44,069 bases of DNA. Source: a virus. A program made the translations under genes and the position numbers. The stretch is taken from positions 1 through 44,069 of IMG/VR virus record IMGVR_UViG_3300032053_000155, one strand, 5' to 3'. The notes beneath the pieces are model-generated. The model saw only the letters and a program-made list of their open reading frames with translations. It was not told the DNA's origin and searched no databases. Below are positions 16,100-34,755 of this stretch, in pieces (the first letter of the stretch is position 1; each line of letters starts with the position of its first letter).

Positions 16100-17689
16100 C
16101 TACTTAACCCACAGCACGGGTTTCTGACCCCACGACGCAGGCACCTTCGCGCTTGCGAAGCGCACGTCTGCGCCGATATGCTCACCCGTCTCTGGCCCTT
16201 TGCCAAGAGGTGCGAGCGTACAGAGTAAGTGTAAGGGCTGCACTGCAGCCCCTCCGCTCTTATGCTCGAATCCACAGCCCCATAACGCCTTTCCTGCGGG
16301 CGCTTGAATCACGAGACCCGTCTCTGACCATGAGCGCCCTTGGTCGAGCGAACGCATGACAAGCACCTTCGTCGAAGAGCCCGAGGGGTACCATTGCGCG
16401 TGAGCAGTCATGCTCAGCGCTGATGCTCTCACGCCTGCTGCTGACGCGCTGGCCGTTGTCTCGACGTCTATTGTTGAGAGCAGCGAGCCGTCAACGTCAA
16501 TCGCGATGGGAGAGAGAGGCACAGGTAGCACACCTAGCGACGTCGTCTGAGTATAGAGCGCGACATGGTATGCGCTGGGCCATGCGTAGCGCTCAAGCGC
16601 GAACTGCCCCGCCGTGGGCCCGTCGAGCTTGAGCGTCATGCAGTAGAGATAGCGAATCCCGTCGAGGTCAAGAATCGCGAGAGGCCAGCGCTTTAAGAAC
16701 TCGGGATAGAAGAGTCTCCCGACATTCTGGGTCCATGTAAAGAAACGCTCAGTCAATGACTGCACGCCGAAGCCCCACGTCAGCGATGCTGTGCCCGATT
16801 TTACGAGCGCAGGAAGCGCAGCACGCCTTGTGGCCTCGCCCGCGACTACCCATTTGTAGCTATCAGAGCGCGCGACCTGGGGTGCAGTGATCTCCCATAG
16901 CTCGTTGCTGTCACGATAGGTGCACACCCACTCGCGAAAGATAGGCGGTGTCTGCATGTAGTCAATGCTGAAAAGACACTCACCAATACCGTCCCCGATT
17001 CCTGGGCAGCATACGCCCCCATTTCCCCACACGACTCCATCGAGCATCGTCAGTGCCATGACGTAGGTATAACCTAAGTCGCGTGATTTTAGGAATTCGC
17101 CGACAGTGTAGACGGCGGGCGTGGGAGTGGGGGTCGGTGTTCCAGGGCGCGGCGTGGGCGTCGCAATCGGTACGGGTGTGACGCTTGCGGGTGGACACGT
17201 CGAGATTACCTGCCCGAAGCAGATGTCCCCAGCCTTATAGGGAGCACAATTCGTCCCACCATTCCAGCACCATTGGTCGGCTGCGACAGCGGGCGTGGGC
17301 GTCGCGCACGATGTCACCTGCTCGAAACCTTCTGGGCACGTCGAGCCAAAAACCGACACGCTGCAGGCCCCTGTTGTCTTGTCTCTGCAGTAAACCGTCG
17401 CCTCTGCTGCTGCAGAGACGAGCAGTAGCACGAGCGCTGCTGTCATTTTCCGTAACGCTAGCTTGAGCATTCGTTCCTCCTTCGCTGCTTTATTGCTGCG
17501 GCGTTTGCATCCCACTGTCGCGAGCACCGCTGCGCGGCATGACGACGTGCAGTGCGTGACTTTCTTGACGAGAACTCCGTCAAAATCTCTAACATACTGA
17601 AAGCGCCCCCCACATAGGAAGCGCTCTCTCTCTTCGTTCCACTGCGCCCCGCAATAGGGGCAGCGTTTCTTTTTCGCTTCGTGTCTCAC
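16100..17689 (-). CDS. exported Thr-Pro-rich protein with Asp-box, zinc-ribbon N-terminal extension
   Basis: The frame is open for 529 codons from a GTG at 17689 that overlaps the endolysin stop (GTGA). The first 70 residues have a zinc-ribbon look (RCPYCGAQW, CTSSCR). A second start at 17470 has a far stronger ribosome site (AAGGAGGAACGA) and gives MLKLALRKMTAALVLLLVSA, a clear signal peptide; this 456-residue form is probably the main product. Then come a Cys-rich region, a linker (PTPRPGTPTPTPTP), and a large domain with RLFYPEFLKRWP. SLDQGRSW matches the sialidase-type Asp-box. It may bind or cut surface glycans (inference). Confidence 0.7.
   Translation of the reverse strand: MRHEAKKKRCPYCGAQWNEERERFLCGGRFQYVRDFDGVLVKKVTHCTSSCRAAVLATVGCKRRSNKAAKEERMLKLALRKMTAALVLLLVSAAAEATVYCRDKTTGACSVSVFGSTCPEGFEQVTSCATPTPAVAADQWCWNGGTNCAPYKAGDICFGQVISTCPPASVTPVPIATPTPRPGTPTPTPTPAVYTVGEFLKSRDLGYTYVMALTMLDGVVWGNGGVCCPGIGDGIGECLFSIDYMQTPPIFREWVCTYRDSNELWEITAPQVARSDSYKWVVAGEATRRAALPALVKSGTASLTWGFGVQSLTERFFTWTQNVGRLFYPEFLKRWPLAILDLDGIRYLYCMTLKLDGPTAGQFALERYAWPSAYHVALYTQTTSLGVLPVPLSPIAIDVDGSLLSTIDVETTASASAAGVRASALSMTAHAQWYPSGSSTKVLVMRSLDQGRSWSETGLVIQAPAGKALWGCGFEHKSGGAAVQPLHLLCTLAPLGKGPETGEHIGADVRFASAKVPASWGQKPVLWVK
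17471..17487 (-). promoter_or_regulatory. strong internal ribosome binding site
   Basis: On the minus strand, GCGAAGGAGGAACGA precedes the ATG at 17470, inside the open frame that begins at 17689. It is as good as the sites of most phage genes here and decides the start of the exported form. Confidence 0.7.
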
Positions 17690-18539: not shown

Positions 18540-20300
18540 TTAACTGGCTGTCGTTGTCGCAATGATTGCTTGTGGTACATACGGCGTCAAAACGAAGTCC
18601 GTAGAATCGTATTCAACAAGTGACAGCGTGAAGGTCCCGTCTGCATTATCTTCTATCGCGTTAACGAGGACCGTCTTCGTCCCCGTGAAGAGGCGCGACA
18701 ATAGAATGAGGTAGTCACCCGCTGCTATTACTAGGCCGTGTTGCGCAACTCTGCATGACGCGCGCCATGTCCTGCGCGCGCGTTTGAGCCACGTCACCAG
18801 CAAGCGATAAAGTTGACCGCCAGCCGGTGTCGCTATACTCACGCGCAACTCTTTCGGCTGCTCGCTGCCGTTGAGAATCGTCGAGTGCTGGTACTTTACT
18901 TCTTTGCGCGTCCAGTCGTCAACGTCATAGTACGTTCCAACGGCGACGTTTGGAATCTCCGAGTCGTCATGCGAGCATACCAACGAGCCCTCGAGGATGG
19001 GAACACTGGGTGAGTCTGCAGGATCATCGCTCGCGGTCCCAGCATTCGCTGCACTGCCGTCAAGACTAACTCGGTATTTCCCATCATACCACACGAATCG
19101 CCCGTGACAAGTCCGCAGCAGCGTCGCAGCGATAGATTCGAGAAGCTGCCTGTCGAGTACCGTTAGCATTGCTTCGTATGTTCTCTCGAAACGCGCGACT
19201 TGGAAGTAGTGGTCATAATTGACGTCCGTCCAAACGCCCGTAATTTTCGCTTGTGCCTTCCCATTCGCATAGAGATTCGTTAGCGAATTCAAATGCCACT
19301 TATAAGTGGTGTTGCTCGCAGCAGGGAAGACGAGGTAGTAGGTTGCGCCCGCAGTGAAATAATTACCAAGGAATTGCGTCTCAACGATGTAATCACCTGC
19401 AACAACCGTACCATATATGGGCATGAACCCGCCAACGTTGGCGCCATCCGGCGTTGCCCTTATGTAGAAGACGGGGCTCAAATCACCACCCACTGGAATA
19501 TTCACCTTGCAATGTACTATGACATCATGAGCCGGCATAACGAATGATTGCAGTCTGTCATAGTCGCCTAAACCAACGGAAGTATTTGACGACGTCTGCT
19601 GCTCGGCCTGGACGCTCGTGTAGTCAATCAAACTACTGCATGCCGCGCTCGCAGCATTGAACGAGCCCGTACCGCTCGCATACGCGATTGACGCTTCAAG
19701 AACGCCACACCCATAGTCAGCAGACATGAGCGCGTCAAGGAGATGATCCGTCGGGTAGGATGAATATAGCTTGTTTCCGGGTGTCGAAGGATCGGGGCAA
19801 AGCATACCGCGTCCCTGCACTTCGACGCGCGGAATTCCCCCTCGTATGTCGGCAGTCGCAAGCGTCAACTGAATCGCGACGTATGCGTAACCAGGATGCG
19901 TCCAGTTTACAATCGTCGCATTGCTGATATTCGTCACCGCTGTCTGTGTTAAGCTTCCTGTCCTCACTTGACATGTTGCCCAGGCGGGTGTAGTCGGGTA
20001 GACCTCTTCGTTGTCGACCCAGACTTTCTCTATTGCTGCAATCTCACCCTCACCTATTAGCGCAATGACCTCCATTTTTCCACTAACGATGTCTGCATGC
20101 ACAAGAGAGAAGCATGATCGGAAGCGCCCGTAGTTTATTGGGCAGCAGCGGCCTTCTGCCGTGTCTGTAAATTCTAAATTGACTTGACGAGTCATCGGCT
20201 CTCCAACGCCCGGGATCGTGTCTGCATAACGAGTCGGAGGAGGCGGAGGAGGTGGTATTATGTCACCTACCCGGTGCAGCTTCCTTCTTACAATAGGCAT
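18540..20300 (-). CDS. tail hub / tip protein with inserted beta-sandwich domain
   Basis: A 586-residue protein. The N-terminus has a seven-proline run (residues 16 to 22). The body (GKMEVIALIGEGEIAAIEKV, VWVDNEEVYP, IPRVEVQGRGM) and the segment LLRTCHGRFVWYDGKYRVSL are typical of phage central hub proteins (tip attachment or J-like core). Residues about 228 to 368 interrupt this with a beta-rich, low-charge stretch (VGLGDYDRLQSFVMPAHDV, FTAGATYYLVFPAAS) like an adhesin or carbohydrate-binding sandwich. The last two hub-type genes are adjacent. It probably forms the tail tip and contacts the host surface. Confidence 0.75.
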   Translation of the reverse strand: MPIVRRKLHRVGDIIPPPPPPPTRYADTIPGVGEPMTRQVNLEFTDTAEGRCCPINYGRFRSCFSLVHADIVSGKMEVIALIGEGEIAAIEKVWVDNEEVYPTTPAWATCQVRTGSLTQTAVTNISNATIVNWTHPGYAYVAIQLTLATADIRGGIPRVEVQGRGMLCPDPSTPGNKLYSSYPTDHLLDALMSADYGCGVLEASIAYASGTGSFNAASAACSSLIDYTSVQAEQQTSSNTSVGLGDYDRLQSFVMPAHDVIVHCKVNIPVGGDLSPVFYIRATPDGANVGGFMPIYGTVVAGDYIVETQFLGNYFTAGATYYLVFPAASNTTYKWHLNSLTNLYANGKAQAKITGVWTDVNYDHYFQVARFERTYEAMLTVLDRQLLESIAATLLRTCHGRFVWYDGKYRVSLDGSAANAGTASDDPADSPSVPILEGSLVCSHDDSEIPNVAVGTYYDVDDWTRKEVKYQHSTILNGSEQPKELRVSIATPAGGQLYRLLVTWLKRARRTWRASCRVAQHGLVIAAGDYLILLSRLFTGTKTVLVNAIEDNADGTFTLSLVEYDSTDFVLTPYVPQAIIATTTAS

Positions 20301-20301
20301 A

Positions 20302-22173
20302 CTAATCCGCCCGCTTCAAGCGCTTTGGGGGGCCGCCCCCGGGCGCAACATAGAATTCTGCAAATGGGTTGTAAGGAGCAGCAGGAGGAACGTAGGTCCC
20401 TGCTACTTCTGACGTCGCAGGCTGTGGTGTTGTCACAGTATAAGAGAACTTCTGCCCAATCTGCGGCATGCTAGGCCAGCCTCCATACCTCAGGATATTG
20501 CCGTAGGCAATGCAAGTTACCATTGTGCGGTCACACGTCAAAATGTTACCAGTCCCCGCGAGAGAGGAATCGAATGCGTACTTTCCGAGCGTGTGCGCCG
20601 TGAGTGAAAGGGCGGTTGCGCTGGCGTAGTCGGCCGCGATATCCGTCCCACTGCGCGCGTTGTCCTCTATGCGCAGGTCGTCAATAAATCCGTCAAGCTG
20701 GAGCGTCCCGTCCGCCTTGCTCCCGAGATAAACGAGGGTGCCGGCGGCCAGACCAGGCGCCGTCCCGCTTGTACCCTCTGAGGAGCCATTGCGGTAGATC
20801 GTTACCCCCGCGGCAGCCCACGTCACCGCGACGTGGTAGAGCGTGTCAACAATCAGTGCGTTCGTTCCCGTTATCGTGACCTCGCTCGACCCCGTGCCAA
20901 AGACGCATTCCAATTTCCCGTCCGTGCGCACGTAGAACTTGAGGCCGTAGTTTGTCGCTCCGTTGGCGTCTAGGATGTACTGTTGATTCGTGCCGGGCGC
21001 TCGCAAGAGTTTTATCCACGCCTCGAATGTCCCGACAGCATTGCTAACCGCGGCTTGCGGGATCGTCAGCGTCTCCGCGTTGCGCGTGCCCGCACCAATG
21101 TGCCAGGAAGTCGCGTACGCTTTCTGCTCGATCTGGAGACAGTCTAGATAGAACGTGTGCGCTCCTGAGGTCCAGTTATAGGCCAGCAGCGCGACCTTGG
21201 CGGTCGTCGCGGGCGCGACCATCGCGACGTTCACGGTCTGCCACGTCGCATCGCACGTGAGTTCGACGTACGAGCCGCTGATGAAAACGGTACCGGAGGT
21301 GTAGAATCCGACGTACAGCCGTACGAGCTTTGTGTTCTCGCCCTTGATCCGCGCCCGCACTGCGTAGGGCAGGCCTACTGTCGCGGCAGGCATCGTGCTC
21401 GTGTACGCCCCGTTCCCTAGGGCCGCGCACGTGACCTTGAGGGATGCCGCGCCCTCGTATTTCTGCCCAGTATCCCGCGCGATCGTGGCGCCACCAATGA
21501 CGGCGAAGCCAGTCGTGTCGGTCTCAACGCCTGACTGATTCGCACTCAACAGGTTCGTCGTCCCCTCCTCAACCGTGATCCCGTTGGAGTATTTCGCCGC
21601 CTCGTAGCGCGGAAGCCCGCTGGCGACGCTGGTGCCATCCTGCTTGTAGGCGGTCGTGGCACGGGTGAGCACAGCCGTGTACGCGCCAAGAAAGCTGCAG
21701 CGCGTACCCTTGAAAACATGCGAGCAGAGACGCGAGACAATGCGCCCCACCATCCCTGCTGATATTGCTAGCCTGAGTTTCCCAGTCAGCGTCGCGCCAT
21801 CAGACCCATACTTGACGGCCGTCACGATCCCCGAAAAGAGCATTACAGGATCAAGTTGCGCACCCGCTGCGGACCAATGTACCTCATAAACGACAAGTGT
21901 TACACCCAACAGAGTACCCGCTGCGTCTGCTTCGCTAACTAGGTTGTCCGCATTCGAGACGCGCAGCGACCCGCCTGGGAGACCACCAACAGTGAATGAG
22001 CCCGGGTCAAGAACATCTTCCGTGTAGGTATCACCGCCAATGACAAGGGACCCTGGCCCCTGGCAAAGACGAATCGGCGTCGGTGTCCCAATCGCGACCG
22101 CATGACGCGCTCGATACTGCGCAGCGATAGCGACAGTCGAGACACCAGTCGGAAGCGTCGCACCGCGCGTCAT
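20302..22173 (-). CDS. tail tip protein (DUF2163/lambda L-like) with inserted LamG-like region
   Basis: A 623-residue protein. The N-terminal 165 residues (LDPVMLFSGIVTAVKYGSDG, RLCSHVFKGTRCSF) and the C-terminal 80 (LTCDRTMVTCIAYGNILRYG, then GWPSMP) together form a DUF2163-type tail tip domain. The four cysteines at 150, 159, 547 and 554 match the metal or Fe-S ligands known for this kind of protein. Residues about 165 to 545 are an insertion. It holds a CBM-like part (YEGAASLKVTCAALG) and a LamG/concanavalin-like part (GTFEAWIKLLRAPGT, YHVAVTWAAAGVTIYRNGSS). Codon choice in the insertion looks more GC-rich than in the flanks. Confidence 0.75.
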   Translation of the reverse strand: MTRGATLPTGVSTVAIAAQYRARHAVAIGTPTPIRLCQGPGSLVIGGDTYTEDVLDPGSFTVGGLPGGSLRVSNADNLVSEADAAGTLLGVTLVVYEVHWSAAGAQLDPVMLFSGIVTAVKYGSDGATLTGKLRLAISAGMVGRIVSRLCSHVFKGTRCSFLGAYTAVLTRATTAYKQDGTSVASGLPRYEAAKYSNGITVEEGTTNLLSANQSGVETDTTGFAVIGGATIARDTGQKYEGAASLKVTCAALGNGAYTSTMPAATVGLPYAVRARIKGENTKLVRLYVGFYTSGTVFISGSYVELTCDATWQTVNVAMVAPATTAKVALLAYNWTSGAHTFYLDCLQIEQKAYATSWHIGAGTRNAETLTIPQAAVSNAVGTFEAWIKLLRAPGTNQQYILDANGATNYGLKFYVRTDGKLECVFGTGSSEVTITGTNALIVDTLYHVAVTWAAAGVTIYRNGSSEGTSGTAPGLAAGTLVYLGSKADGTLQLDGFIDDLRIEDNARSGTDIAADYASATALSLTAHTLGKYAFDSSLAGTGNILTCDRTMVTCIAYGNILRYGGWPSMPQIGQKFSYTVTTPQPATSEVAGTYVPPAAPYNPFAEFYVAPGGGPPKRLKRAD

Positions 22174-22757
22174 GCTTCCTCCCCTTCGAGTGTGATTGCA
22201 AACTCAGAACGTTGGTAGCTAATTGTGCGAATCGAGACATCAGACGCCATGCGTCCTATAAGCAGACGCCGGCCGAGGAAGCTAATCGTCACAGCCTTAC
22301 CGTTCGCAGGCGCGTTGCCTGCTGTAAAGTGAATGCGCTCGCGTTTCAAGCTGTCTCCCCCATCATAGTCGAGGTTATAGTGAGTCACGCGCGTCTTCGT
22401 AACGCCGTCAACCTTCACGACCTCGCTATCGGTATAGACCTCGCGCCCTGGAAATGGGAACAGGAGATTCGCACCGTCGCCTGTCCCTGCGCTAACGTCG
22501 TCCCATTGCAGCCACAATGAGCCCGTGTAAAAGTAAACCTCGACGAAACCACCAGCGAGGCCATTGAGCGCAGTCTGAAATGCAGCGAGCACCGTCGGGT
22601 TGCGTGCCCACTGCAGAGCAACGCGCCAGCGTGGGCGCGTTCGCGTTGCCCTGCTCTGCACGATATTGCCCGCATCGTCGGTGTAACGTCGAAGCTGCCA
22701 GAGTGCAGCCTCGTCGACCCCGTAATCTGGTGCTGAGTAATCGAAAAGTGCAGTCAT
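22170..22757 (-). CDS. DUF2460-like distal tail protein
   Basis: A 195-residue protein. The start at 22757 (MTALFDYSAPDYGVDEAALW) has AGGTGG upstream. The segment GTGDGANLLFPFPGREVYTD, then VDGVTKTRVTHYNLDYDGGD and IHFTAGNAPANGKAVTISFL, matches the beta-rich core of DUF2460 proteins. These sit between tape measure and hub in many siphophages and gene transfer agents. It probably caps the tail tube and links it to the tip. Confidence 0.7.
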   Translation of the reverse strand: MTALFDYSAPDYGVDEAALWQLRRYTDDAGNIVQSRATRTRPRWRVALQWARNPTVLAAFQTALNGLAGGFVEVYFYTGSLWLQWDDVSAGTGDGANLLFPFPGREVYTDSEVVKVDGVTKTRVTHYNLDYDGGDSLKRERIHFTAGNAPANGKAVTISFLGRRLLIGRMASDVSIRTISYQRSEFAITLEGEEA

Positions 22758-22758
22758 A

Positions 22759-25700
22759 CTAACCCCACCTTTGCATGGACCCGGCCTTCGCTTCAAGACC
22801 AGCAAGTCGCGCAGTCACCCCTGCAACGGCGACATTAAACCCCTCAAGAATATCGGCGCCCTCGCCAAGTTTTAGATTCAAGCCCTCACGCAACGACGTC
22901 TCATCCTGCAGTTTTGCCATCAGGCCATCCCGCAGCGACGTCTCTGACGTCAGTGCTGTAGTTATCCCGGTAAGTGCTGCTTGCAGCGCGTCATTCTGCG
23001 CCTTAATTTCGTCCTGCCAACCTTTAAGCAGGTCCTCTGTTATCGTCTGTGCTTGCTTCAAGAACTGCTCGACCCATTCTTGCGAACCGGGAACTGCTTC
23101 GCCGAATGGTGTCTGCTGACCAGTGCCGTATATCCCCGGGAGATTCAATTTCCAAAGCGCCTGCCCGTACTGTATGAGTTGCTGCGTAATTTCCTGAATC
23201 ATCTCCGGGCCGGTCGCTCCCTGCAGTTGCGCGCGTAACTCTTCCATCTTGCGCATATAGAACGCGCCCAACGATTCGGGACCGCCCGTCCCGGCCCGCT
23301 GCTCCTCGAGGCCGGCGAAGGTGGCTTCGTATGTCTTTGACAGCGTAATCTGCATTTGCGCAAGTTGGCCGAGGTATTGCAGGTTAGCTTCATACTGCGC
23401 CTCTGCGAGGTCCGCTATCTGATTTGCACGCATAACCTGCTCTTCGCTCGTGAGCGAACTCAAACCCTCAGAGAGTCGCTGAATCTCTGTAAGGCTTTCG
23501 TCTGCCATTTGCTTCCAGGTGTCCCTGACAGATTGCGTTAATTCTGTACGCAGGTCGTCAAGCGATTTGCCCAGGTCCTTGTGCAAATTCTGAAGGCGGA
23601 GAAGAACGGTGACATACTCCTTCAGCGCCAGGAGCGTCTTATCGAAGTCACCGGTAGAAAACTTGGTCATCTCCTCCGTAATGCGCCCAACCGAGACTCC
23701 GACCGACGCAAGGCCAAGTTCCAGTGCAGGCCTGAACGCCTCAAACACGGCACGCGGAACGGTGCCGGATATAAAGGCTTGAATCGCGCTTTGGAGGTTC
23801 TTTGACTTCTCATTGAAGGCAAGTGTAATGTCAGGCATCTCCCCGACCGCCTGGCCTAGGGCATGGAGAATGTCTCGGAAGGCAAAAGCGGTCGTGCGGT
23901 AACGATCGGTAATCTCCTGCGCCACCTGTCTCTCAGCTTCCTTGCTCACACCGCCCGTAATCTCGGTGACATAACCGAGACCCCCGCGCAGACCCATCTG
24001 CGCACTCTCTTTACTCGGACCTTTCGAGCCTAGGTAGGCGAGCGCAGCCCCGACCACCGCGCCGATAATTGTGCCCCACACCGGGAACGCGGAACCTGCC
24101 GCAGCACCCGATGCTGCACCCGCACCCACTCCGGCGGCCGCCCCCATGCCCCCGCCCATCATGAAGCCCATCCCTGCGCCCGACATTGCACCACCGATAG
24201 TCGCAAGACCACGGTTCGCTTGTGCTGTTCCAAGCTGACCGAGTATCCCGCCGATCATTGACGCAGCACCCGCCCAGTTAAACTGCCCGGGTTTGTTTGG
24301 TCCCTCGCCCGTTGTGCCAGGTGTCCACAGCCCCGTAGCTTTGCCGATGTCTGCAATAGAACCCCCCGCAAAGAGCGTTTGCATTGCATTGCCGAGTGCC
24401 TGCGAGAACATGCCAACAAAGCCCGCTGTCAGCGCACCCCATGCACTCTTTAAGTCTCCGCTCTCGAAGAGCGCAAGTAGACCATCCTTGAATGCGTCTG
24501 CGAACTCTTTCGAGAACGCAGGGGCGGCTTCTGCGATGCCTTCTTTCATGCCACTAACGATCCCACCTTGTACGCCTTCGTCTACCTTCGTACCTATGCT
24601 CTGCTGCAACGCAAGCCCGAGTCCAGATGCTTCGACGGCGGGCGCGATACCTGCGAACGAAGCGGGGAGCTCCGCATTGAGCCCCGTGCCGAGATTTACC
24701 GCAAGCATCTTGCCTAGACCAGTGAAGCGGTCAGAGAGTTGAGTTGTAAACTCTGCTTGCATTGCCCAGTCAGGCTTGAAGAGCAGCGACGCCGTCGCCT
24801 GCCACGACTTGCCTACCTCTTGAAGTTGCTTTGACAATTTCTGATAGGCAGTCTCCATGCGCTTTATCTGCTCTTCATGTTTCTTCTTTATCTCGATTGC
24901 CTTCTCTTCCGCTTGCTGCGCTTCGACGAATGCTCCCGTTGCTTGCTTATAAATTTCAAGCGACGTCATCCCCATGCCAGGGAGGCCGGTCTTGCCGAGC
25001 ATTTGCTCGATTGATTGCATGGCAGACGGAACAACCGGACCAGGAAGTTCTAGCTGTTCCTCGCTCAGGCCACGTCGAGTTACATAGCTTTTCTTGAATG
25101 CTTCCCAGATACCCTGTCCCGCCCCTATTGTTTCAAAGAATGTATTCCAGGCAGCGCGCATGCGGTTCGTATTGTCTGTTAGGTCTATTACCGCATCGTT
25201 CGTCTCTGAGAGCGCCTCTTTTGTCGCACCAAGGGTCATCCCACCCCACGTTTCCTTCAACTCATTCAACGAAGCCGTAAGACGGTCCCATGCACCCTGA
25301 GTCGTCGCACCAATCCTGGCTGCCGCGCCACCGTAGCTCGATTCAACACGCTCGAGGATTAACGCCATAGCGGTCAGGGTATCGCCCGACTCGCTGACCA
25401 CCTTGATTTGTTCCTTCTGTTGCTGCGTAAAGACAACCCCGGCGCGCGTGAGTGCAGTCAGACCGCTCGACGGATTCTCCATCGCGCGACCGAGTTTCGT
25501 GACCCAGTCGGGCAGGTCACCACCACGCACGGCAGCAAGGTCTGCAGCACTCTTGAGCATGCGCTCAAGCGCCGGCCCAGTAACATTGTGATAAGTGAGC
25601 GCGAGCGCCTCTGCTTCTTTCACTTCCTCACGATGTCTCCCCGTAAGTGCAGCTAGACTCTCTGCCATTGCGTGTAACTGTACGATGGTCGCGCCTGACG

Positions 25701-26211
25701 CGCCTTTAGTTGCTGTCCACGTCGCTAGCAACTTCGCACTTGCAACTTCGTCCCCCATCGCCGCTCTCGTGACATCGAGCCAACCCTTACCAACCGCCGC
25801 AAACACAGTACCGACAACTGCTAGCTGCGCAGCAAGCTTCAAGTAGGTCCCATGTAGAACATCAATGGCGCTTCCATGCTCGACAGTCTGCGTTGTCGTT
25901 TGTGTTTGTTTCTGATTCAGCGCGTCGAGCGCCGCCTTATACCGGTCGATTGCCTGGGTACCCTCTCCAAACTTCCCAACGACAAGCGCATCCTTCAGTA
26001 GTCGTTGCTGGTCTGTGAGCTTTTCTGTCGCAACGCGGGCTGGCTCAAGCTTGTTAATGAGCGCAGTCATGTCCTTCTCTTGCTTCGAGAGTTTCGCGCC
26101 AGCCTGCTCTGACGCCTCACCAAACTCCTTCATATCTTGCTTGAGCTTGACAAGCGTCTCCTGACCAGTCTTCGCATCAATGACTATCTGGAAGAGCGCC
26201 TTCGCCGCCAT
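22759..26211 (-). CDS. tape measure protein
   Basis: A 1150-residue protein, the longest in the window, in the standard place between tail chaperones and tip genes. The N-terminus is helical (LVKLKQDMKEFGEASEQAGA). A Gly/Ala-rich hydrophobic middle region (GMGFMMGGGMGAAAGVGAGA, WGTIIGAVVGAALAYLGS) fits a membrane-active tape segment. The C-terminus repeats LKQxETSLRDGL-like motifs. By length it predicts a tail of roughly 170 nm by the usual 1.5 angstrom per residue rule. No lysozyme or peptidase motif was recognised. Confidence 0.9.
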   Translation of the reverse strand: MAAKALFQIVIDAKTGQETLVKLKQDMKEFGEASEQAGAKLSKQEKDMTALINKLEPARVATEKLTDQQRLLKDALVVGKFGEGTQAIDRYKAALDALNQKQTQTTTQTVEHGSAIDVLHGTYLKLAAQLAVVGTVFAAVGKGWLDVTRAAMGDEVASAKLLATWTATKGASGATIVQLHAMAESLAALTGRHREEVKEAEALALTYHNVTGPALERMLKSAADLAAVRGGDLPDWVTKLGRAMENPSSGLTALTRAGVVFTQQQKEQIKVVSESGDTLTAMALILERVESSYGGAAARIGATTQGAWDRLTASLNELKETWGGMTLGATKEALSETNDAVIDLTDNTNRMRAAWNTFFETIGAGQGIWEAFKKSYVTRRGLSEEQLELPGPVVPSAMQSIEQMLGKTGLPGMGMTSLEIYKQATGAFVEAQQAEEKAIEIKKKHEEQIKRMETAYQKLSKQLQEVGKSWQATASLLFKPDWAMQAEFTTQLSDRFTGLGKMLAVNLGTGLNAELPASFAGIAPAVEASGLGLALQQSIGTKVDEGVQGGIVSGMKEGIAEAAPAFSKEFADAFKDGLLALFESGDLKSAWGALTAGFVGMFSQALGNAMQTLFAGGSIADIGKATGLWTPGTTGEGPNKPGQFNWAGAASMIGGILGQLGTAQANRGLATIGGAMSGAGMGFMMGGGMGAAAGVGAGAASGAAAGSAFPVWGTIIGAVVGAALAYLGSKGPSKESAQMGLRGGLGYVTEITGGVSKEAERQVAQEITDRYRTTAFAFRDILHALGQAVGEMPDITLAFNEKSKNLQSAIQAFISGTVPRAVFEAFRPALELGLASVGVSVGRITEEMTKFSTGDFDKTLLALKEYVTVLLRLQNLHKDLGKSLDDLRTELTQSVRDTWKQMADESLTEIQRLSEGLSSLTSEEQVMRANQIADLAEAQYEANLQYLGQLAQMQITLSKTYEATFAGLEEQRAGTGGPESLGAFYMRKMEELRAQLQGATGPEMIQEITQQLIQYGQALWKLNLPGIYGTGQQTPFGEAVPGSQEWVEQFLKQAQTITEDLLKGWQDEIKAQNDALQAALTGITTALTSETSLRDGLMAKLQDETSLREGLNLKLGEGADILEGFNVAVAGVTARLAGLEAKAGSMQRWG

Positions 26212-30135: not shown

Positions 30136-30954
30136 CTAGCGGATCTGCACCACCTTGATGTAGTCAACGAGCAGCGTCTTCGTGACCGCCTCGCCAGTCT
30201 TCACCCCGAAAATGGGGGCAAGCGCCTGCGCACTCGGGAACGTCGCAGCGCTTGTCGTCGCCACGGTTGCGACTGCAGTCCTGTCAATGTAGAAGGTCAC
30301 GGTGCTGGCCCCGTCGAAGACGAATCCGAAACGGTGGTAGTCGTCAGCGTTCACGGCCTGCGCCAGAACCGCCTGCTGAGCTTGCCCCGCCTTCTTCCAA
30401 ACGACGTCCCAAGCAGTAGGCGACGCCGTCAAGATATGGAAGCCGATGAGGTCCTTGTCAGCGAGAATTGCATCGTCGTTGGTCATAAAGTCGGCAGCGG
30501 CACAGCCCTCCTCTGCCATCCCAATGAACCACCCGGCGTCTGCGTGCTGCCCGGCCTTCGCATAGCACTCGAACCAGAGTGGCTTCGCTCCGGCGTCGGT
30601 GATAATGAACGGCGCATGAAGCGCGCCCGAGCCAAGCTGCAGGTAGAATTCGTCGTTGTCCGTGTTGCCGCACTCCATTGACAACACGCCACCCGCGACC
30701 TTTGGGTAGATAGTCGTCTTATGGTCGCCTGATGCGGCGAAGGTCGTAGGAATCCCAGTCGTGTCGTCGACCGATGCCGCGACGAAGTCCTCGAAATAGC
30801 GAATCGCGACCGCAGGGTCGAGCGCTGCGAGTTGCGGGCACGTCTCCCAAATGCTCGTGCCCTTTGTTGGTGAGTAGCCATTGTCGCGATAGGCGCCATT
30901 ACGGCCAGCGTTCGCGAGGTTGGCCCAGTCAAAACGTGTACGCATTCCAGCCAT
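30136..30954 (-). CDS. lectin-like (concanavalin fold) structural protein
   Basis: A 272-residue protein with ribosome site GGGAGACGACA. The first 55 residues lead into a beta-rich domain (VLSMECGNTDNDEFYLQLGS, PLWFECYAKAGQ, DAGWFIGMAEEG, YHRFGFVFDGASTVTFYIDR). The order of strands and the 'FYIDRTAVATV' ending are characteristic of concanavalin-like lectin/glucanase folds. It follows the major capsid and one small structural gene, so it is probably a head decoration protein that may bind glycans. Confidence 0.65.
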   Translation of the reverse strand: MAGMRTRFDWANLANAGRNGAYRDNGYSPTKGTSIWETCPQLAALDPAVAIRYFEDFVAASVDDTTGIPTTFAASGDHKTTIYPKVAGGVLSMECGNTDNDEFYLQLGSGALHAPFIITDAGAKPLWFECYAKAGQHADAGWFIGMAEEGCAAADFMTNDDAILADKDLIGFHILTASPTAWDVVWKKAGQAQQAVLAQAVNADDYHRFGFVFDGASTVTFYIDRTAVATVATTSAATFPSAQALAPIFGVKTGEAVTKTLLVDYIKVVQIR

Positions 30955-33936: not shown

Positions 33937-34755
33937 CTATGCTGCTTTTCTGTTGAATCCGTTGACCGCATTTGCGAAGAGGTCGTCGTCAATATCAAAG
34001 AGCGCGCGCGAAGGTCTCGCGACAACCCGACCAACGGCTTTCAGTGTCGCTTTGCTTGCAATGCAGTCTGAGCTTCCGAGTATCAGGGTGAAAACCTCGC
34101 CAGCAGAGATGAGGTGAGCTTTACTCGCAACGAGAGACGAGTCACCAAGGATAGCTCGCTGATACCCGACCCAACCGCCCGCCCAGGGCGCGAGATACGG
34201 CTCTTCCTCAGCTTCTAGCACCAGGCCGGATACTGAGATTCGCGCGAACTCTGCAACGAGAAATGACTGCCCCTCGAAAACTTCCGCTCCTACTGTACCG
34301 ACCGCTGCGACTTCCGCTTGCTGCGCAGTCAGCACTGCGGCCCCTGCGAACACCTCAGCGCCGACCACTGCGACTGCCGCCTGCTGCGCAGTCAGCACTG
34401 CGGCCCCTGCGAACACCTCAGCGCCGGCCACTGCGACTGCCGCCTGCTGCGCAGTCAACGCTGCGGCCCCTGCGAACACCTCAGCGCCGACCACTGCGAC
34501 TGCCGCCTGCTGCGCAGTCAACGCTGCGGCCCCTGCGAACACCTCAGCGCCGGCCGCTGCGACTGCCGCTTGCTGCGCAGTCAGCACAGACGAAGCTACG
34601 AATGTCTCTGCGCCTTGCGCTGCGACTTCTGCAGCTTGCGCAATGAGAGTTGCAGTTCCCGTAATATCCGACGTTCCCCCGCGCAGGACGGTCGGATCGG
34701 ACGCCTTTACGTCATTCGGACTAGGCTCGCCGGGATAGGCAAAGAGGTCTGTCAC
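33937..34755 (-). CDS. Ala-rich repeat structural protein
   Basis: A 272-residue protein starting at GTG (34755), overlapping the previous stop (GTGA). Residues about 30 to 155 contain at least six copies of a 21-residue unit like GAEVFAGAAALTAQQAAVAV. The unit is encoded by near-identical 63-bp repeats. The unique C-terminal half has IRISVSG-like strands and a run YQRAILGDSSLVASKAHLIS. The repeated helices could form a fibre or spacer on the head. Neighbouring genes are structural. Confidence 0.65.
   Translation of the reverse strand: MTDLFAYPGEPSPNDVKASDPTVLRGGTSDITGTATLIAQAAEVAAQGAETFVASSVLTAQQAAVAAAGAEVFAGAAALTAQQAAVAVVGAEVFAGAAALTAQQAAVAVAGAEVFAGAAVLTAQQAAVAVVGAEVFAGAAVLTAQQAEVAAVGTVGAEVFEGQSFLVAEFARISVSGLVLEAEEEPYLAPWAGGWVGYQRAILGDSSLVASKAHLISAGEVFTLILGSSDCIASKATLKAVGRVVARPSRALFDIDDDLFANAVNGFNRKAA
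34318..34590. repeat. 63-bp near-identical tandem repeats
   Basis: Units begin at 34318, 34381, 34444, 34507 and 34570, each 63 bases, in frame with the Ala-rich protein. Four copies are complete and differ at only a few positions. The fifth is partial and diverges. The alternation of variants between copies hints at expansion in two-unit steps. Confidence 0.9.

Follow-up and report, generated by a model that had tools for sequence, protein, structure and literature searches.

A predicted tail-tip hub protein of a metagenome-derived virus with a carbohydrate-binding type cassette between the two cysteine pairs of a putative Fe-S site

The hub protein of RcGTA (gp13, Rcc01696; PDB 6tba/6teh) has an ion-binding domain made of two segments (residues 143-167 and 250-263) that are separated by an oligosaccharide-binding domain (residues 168-249), and four cysteines of this protein coordinate an Fe-S cluster (PMC7296036). 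The R4C hub (8gtc) has the layout of RcGTA, with a sugar-binding-like domain between the pairs and an Fe-S cluster coordinated by four cysteines, and its authors already proposed that the oligosaccharide-binding domain had been gained horizontally (PMC10276861). In lambda gpL (8iyk_L), Cys173/182 and Cys205/212 surround an Fe-S cluster, the iron-binding domain is located on the outer surface, and the functions of the gpL-type cluster remain to be characterised (PMC10721106). An analogous arrangement is found in the evolved Dit proteins of lactococcal phages, conserved ring proteins of the tail tip that carry an inserted carbohydrate-binding module; genetic evidence shows that such inserts alter adsorption to exopolysaccharide hosts (PMC10688798).

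The window analysed here is an IMG/VR viral record of 44,069 bases, in which a single uninterrupted ORF encodes a 623-residue protein of the hub type (Table 1). The gene order (tape measure, 211-residue protein, hub, 586-residue Phage-tail_3 partner) places the hub between the tape measure and distal tail side and a gpJ/megatron-like gene, as expected for the RcGTA-type DUF2163 family, and the order of distal tail, hub and megatron-like genes is the same in RcGTA and R4C. By contrast, the NlpC/P60 gene that lies between hub and partner in RcGTA and R4C is absent here. No significant family match was found in Pfam or PHROG for the 211-residue protein. The downstream partner, for which tblastn found no phage relative, is short for the megatron/gpJ type and possibly carries an extra module at approximately residues 230-365, where no GC3 step is seen.

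Table 1. Positions of the hub gene, its parts and its neighbours in the window.
Feature	Position	Strand	Basis or remark
Tape measure gene	22759-26211	minus	PF06791 4.1e-8
211-aa probable distal tail protein gene, upstream	22170-22805	minus	only by position between tape measure and hub
Hub gene, 623 aa, RcGTA gp13/DUF2163 type with cassette insert	20302-22173	minus	ORF, phrog_778, PF09931/PF09356
N-terminal attachment (HDI) domain, residues 1-149	21727-22173	minus	PF09931 and fold matches
First cysteine pair, C150-x8-C159	21697-21726	minus	invariant in aligned hubs; spacing of lambda gpL Cys173/182
Inserted cassette, residues 167-538	20560-21675	minus	end-to-end alignment with stand-alone THSA-485A protein; GC3
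Cassette leader, residues 167-207, TRATTAYKQDGT...PRYE...VEEGTTNLL	21553-21675	minus	common to THSA-485A and Clostridia phage-like L025 protein
CBM4/16-like beta-sandwich, approximately residues 208-352	21118-21552	minus	Foldseek to CBM4, CBM16
LamG/concanavalin-like domain, residues 368-513	20635-21072	minus	PF13385 7.2e-23
Second cysteine pair, C547-x6-C554	20512-20535	minus	PF09356 53-78, phrog_778 240-265; spacing of lambda Cys205/212
586-aa Phage-tail_3 (gpJ/megatron-like partner), downstream	18540-20300	minus	PF13550 6.5e-4; phrog_5616 1.3e-8

Judged by profile matches, both flanks of the insert fall within the DUF2163 hub family of the RcGTA type (phrog_778, PF09931 and PF09356). With the full protein, phrog_778 (tail assembly protein) is matched at 2.5e-10, the match being split over two stretches; taken alone, residues 43-160 match positions 38-160 (E 0.0026) and the last 78 residues of the protein match positions 240-265 (E 3.2e-4), so that the flank matches are collinear on the profile and positions 160-240 are absent. 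Residues 42-160 alone match PF09931 (hub attachment domain), also collinearly, at E 3.7e-4 and 21.1 bits, which is below the cut-off of 26, and PF09356 (BR0599) is matched at 4.2e-4 and 21.0 bits (cut-off 22.9). By hhalign, the second-pair region scored E 1.3e-4 and the N-terminal domain alone scored weakly (E 0.0084, probability 5%). The nine best PDB matches of a low-confidence model of the N-terminal domain (pLDDT 52) are all siphophage tail-tip hubs, including DT57C and T5 pb3, JBD30, lambda gpL, T1 and Chi, in a test that is partly dependent because hub sequences made up the alignment behind the model. Similarly, it is mostly through relatives in the N-domain alignment that its profile picks up the hubs of RcGTA (1.4e-43) and R4C (2.6e-29) by sequence. 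These matches bear out the assignment to the DUF2163/gpL-like tail-tip proteins made in a preliminary description of this DNA, whose cysteine positions, domain text and coordinates were all correct.

The hub core is very divergent in sequence, including from RcGTA and R4C. The joined flanks gave no phage match by tblastn at E 0.1, the whole protein gave no relatives among the viral contigs searched, and a whole-protein search of phages returned insert-only matches. Searches with the partner gene, the distal tail gene, the joined flanks and the cassette returned no relatives, so that no close relative lacking the insert was found; a search with the tape measure led to one distant contig, which ends before the hub, and no hub was found in phages with a related terminase (51%), where the contigs are fragments. 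The preliminary description had proposed looking for the same core with another insert or none: other inserts do occur in hubs of the family, as described below, and a close insert-free relative was not found.

The protein contains nine cysteines (37, 150, 159, 249, 307, 345, 423, 547 and 554), four of which (C150, C159, C547 and C554) are the same in all 15 hubs of an alignment (this one and 14 others) and are kept in relatives both with and without long inserts. When nine cysteines were placed at random, the combination of a C-x8-C near 150 and a C-x6-C near 547 occurred in 10 of 200,000 placements. Fragment alignments, in which attachment domains were wrongly placed over the LamG domain, were discarded. 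An AlphaFold2 model of the whole protein, built with 14 related hubs, is poor (pLDDT 35), so that the geometry of the cysteines rests on homology. Lambda gpL has the HDI fold and the C-x8-C...C-x6-C spacing in common with this protein, and its [4Fe-4S] cluster has a predicted counterpart here, whereas its pairs are only 22 residues apart and hold no insert. Given the lambda spacing, the invariance and the solved relatives, the natural reading is that C150/C159 and C547/C554 would together hold one Fe-S cluster, and the earlier suggestion that the two pairs fit a single metal or Fe-S site agrees with homology to the solved hubs.

The cassette between the pairs is probably a module of the carbohydrate-binding type, as supported by its profile matches and by its modelled fold. 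Laminin_G_3 (PF13385) scores 81.8 bits against a gathering cut-off of 27.6. The preceding CBM half (approximately residues 208-352) has no Pfam match of its own; it is the best-predicted part of the poor model (pLDDT approximately 50-62), in which Foldseek relates it to CBM4 and CBM16 structures, and its counterpart in phage THSA-485A matches CBM_4_9 at 3e-5 (24.8 bits, cut-off 25.9). This counterpart lies in Tsac_2847, a stand-alone phage CBM_4_9 and LamG protein that aligns to the cassette from end to end with 27% identity and is not fused to a hub. The insert also matches phrog_701 and phrog_8510. The preliminary description had placed CBM-like and LamG-like text in an insert of some 380 residues at about 165 to 545, and both the domains and, to within a few residues, the bounds are upheld by these comparisons.

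The cassette differs from its flanks in codon use, as had been noticed in the preliminary description: GC3 rises from 0.56 in the flanks to 0.77 in the insert. The best GC3 change points are codons 141 and 540 (0 of 100 permutations were as strong), the contrast between insert and flank at fourfold sites has a P of 2e-6, and GC3 stays at or below 0.714 in every 381-codon stretch of the rest of the window. Across 45 further hubs with inserts, the GC3 of the insert minus that of the flanks averages -0.03 and reaches +0.10 at most, so that the step of +0.21 points to a recent gain, which would be its simplest cause, GC3 being able to vary for other reasons too. The LamG part shares 48% identity with a segment of a 1,433-residue protein on a Clostridia contig (L025) that resembles phage structural DNA, and this protein holds a RATTAYKQDGT-like leader approximately 440 residues upstream of its own LamG; separate searches with the cassette gave nothing further. 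The horizontal domain gain proposed earlier is supported by the GC3 step and by the presence of the same cassette in unrelated phage proteins.

On the other hand, the splitting of a metal site by such a module, which the preliminary description regarded as unusual, has precedents in RcGTA, in R4C and in many phages with 150-540 residues at this point, several of them with LamG; other phages place such modules at the same spot, and the layout is not unique. The pairs are 387 residues apart in the 623-residue hub and 84 to 544 residues apart in hubs of viral contigs, with spacings of 84-88 (OB only), 152-155, 264-265, 280, 303, 325-340, 440, 515 and 536-544 among the best 80 of 211, a survey that was seeded with long-insert hubs, includes many near-duplicates and shows the range rather than the frequency. 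As here, the hubs of RcXuper, RpAliso, DSS3P8, DSS3_MAL1, vB_RpoS-V10 and MD18 (Gp84_N, Laminin_G_3 and BR0599) carry LamG between the pairs, as scanned against Pfam in RcXuper (3e-18), DSS3P8 and MD18 (about 3e-19), and as indicated for RpAliso, DSS3_MAL1 and vB_RpoS-V10 by tblastn matches to the RcXuper hub over its entire length (47-49% identity). LamG also lies between the pairs in two further viral contigs (L026 and L029). Unlike the hub described here, these RcXuper-type hubs show no GC3 step, have a longer insert (about 490-510 residues) and keep the full BR0599 region, with the OB half, beside the second pair. Other modules occur as well: F5/8C is matched weakly in the Lacusarx hub and is the annotation of a hub from an Erythrobacter phage. 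The Karma hub has 339 residues between the pairs and is the counterpart of phiCbK gp97 (541 residues), of the same hub family; gp97 has been detected in virions (PMC3556154), and long inserts are therefore compatible with assembly. Hubs with LamG from roseophages and from a Rhodobacter phage (L020:3474-5600, L107:1501-3561 and L108:1501-3567) are labelled minor tail protein, GTA FAD/FMN-containing dehydrogenase or hypothetical protein, and the dehydrogenase name looks wrong for such a hub.

What sets this hub apart from RcGTA and R4C, with their 82-residue OB domain, is a 372-residue CBM and LamG cassette and no detectable OB domain. The first 50 positions of PF09356 correspond to the second half of the OB domain of approximately 80 residues, and all other hubs scanned against Pfam keep the whole profile; here the match is limited to positions 52/53-78 of 80 and the OB half is undetectable. 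Only seven residues separate C159 from the start of the cassette and eight separate its end from C547. Because the cassette fills the loop to this extent and only the end of PF09356 is matched, the OB domain was apparently swapped out and not just decorated, and in terms of sequence the cassette seems to replace it. Alternatively, an OB domain could be present in a diverged form, or the protein could descend from a hub of the lambda kind, whose 22-residue loop is bare. The complete swap of the usual small domain nevertheless looks like a new feature of this hub.

Our overall reading, to which we give a probability of roughly 0.8, is that this protein is a hub of the RcGTA gp13/lambda gpL type with one Fe-S cluster, the loop of which carries a recently acquired, glycan-binding CBM and LamG cassette. 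Residues 1-149 would dock on the distal tail ring, and the two cysteine pairs, by homology, would jointly hold the cluster. The loop between them would project outward, at the place where relatives carry a small OB-like oligosaccharide-binding domain, and would here hold a mobile cassette acquired not long ago from a structural gene of another phage or prophage. By analogy with the proposals for the RcGTA and R4C hub domains, the CBM4/16-like and LamG folds of the cassette suggest that it binds glycans; most likely it would act as a receptor binder for a host surface glycan such as capsule, LPS or cell wall. Such binding may provide an extra, weak and reversible attachment, while other tip proteins would make the committed contact.

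This reading has to be weighed against explanations that change one of its parts. It is rather improbable that the insert is a structural spacer or a virion decoration that binds no sugar: phage virion proteins often have folds of the LamG type or CBM-like folds, as the PHROG matches of the insert illustrate, and binding has seldom been tested, but the cassette sits at the tail tip, at the same site as the oligosaccharide-binding-like domains of the solved hubs, and the Dit inserts change adsorption to exopolysaccharide hosts (PMC10688798), even if Dit is another protein and has no metal site. It is also unlikely that the flanks form a hub in which the four cysteines hold another metal or disulfides instead of a cluster, such a dispensable site tolerating the insert. 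Hubs without cysteines or clusters exist, as in LSH1 (PMC13243795), JBD30 has a putative metal site that is not a proven Fe-S cluster (PMC11445458), and the full-protein model is too poor to judge the cysteine geometry; against this, all four cysteines are retained with the lambda spacing, whether or not the hub has a long insert. An assembly chimera of two phages, which could be suspected in a single metagenome-derived record with an insert of deviating GC3 and without a second copy in searches with the whole protein or the cassette, is very improbable, because both junctions are in frame within one uninterrupted ORF, lie no more than eight residues from the cysteine pairs and occur at the exact site of the inserts in other phages.

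If the protein is a hub with a cluster and an acquired cassette, it joins a series in which the pairs are 22 to more than 540 residues apart and enclose nothing, an OB domain, an F5/8C-like domain or LamG. This series suggests that the cluster staples the base of the loop, so that bulky adhesion modules may be exchanged with the tail ring undisturbed. A more general and decidedly tentative idea is that the space between the pairs serves as a docking site for exchangeable adhesion modules, that the native OB domain of this phage would have been wholly swapped for the mobile CBM and LamG cassette, and that the Fe-S site acts as a hinge or clamp that admits foreign domains. Hub inserts are likely to be overlooked determinants of host recognition in phages of Alphaproteobacteria and of uncultured hosts.

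Several other genes of the window, all on the minus strand, have distinctive products. Two proteins (16100-17689, for which no family match was found, and 1379-2203) have many cysteines and linkers of the Pro/Thr-rich PTPTPTP type. A 272-residue protein without a Pfam match, encoded in the region of the head genes (33937-34755), contains near-perfect repeats of approximately 22 residues (AxxGAEVFAGAAxLTAQQAAVA). Another protein of 272 residues, encoded near the head genes (30136-30954; GC3 0.74), has a weak Laminin_G_3 match (1.5e-4) and is perhaps a second lectin-like virion protein.
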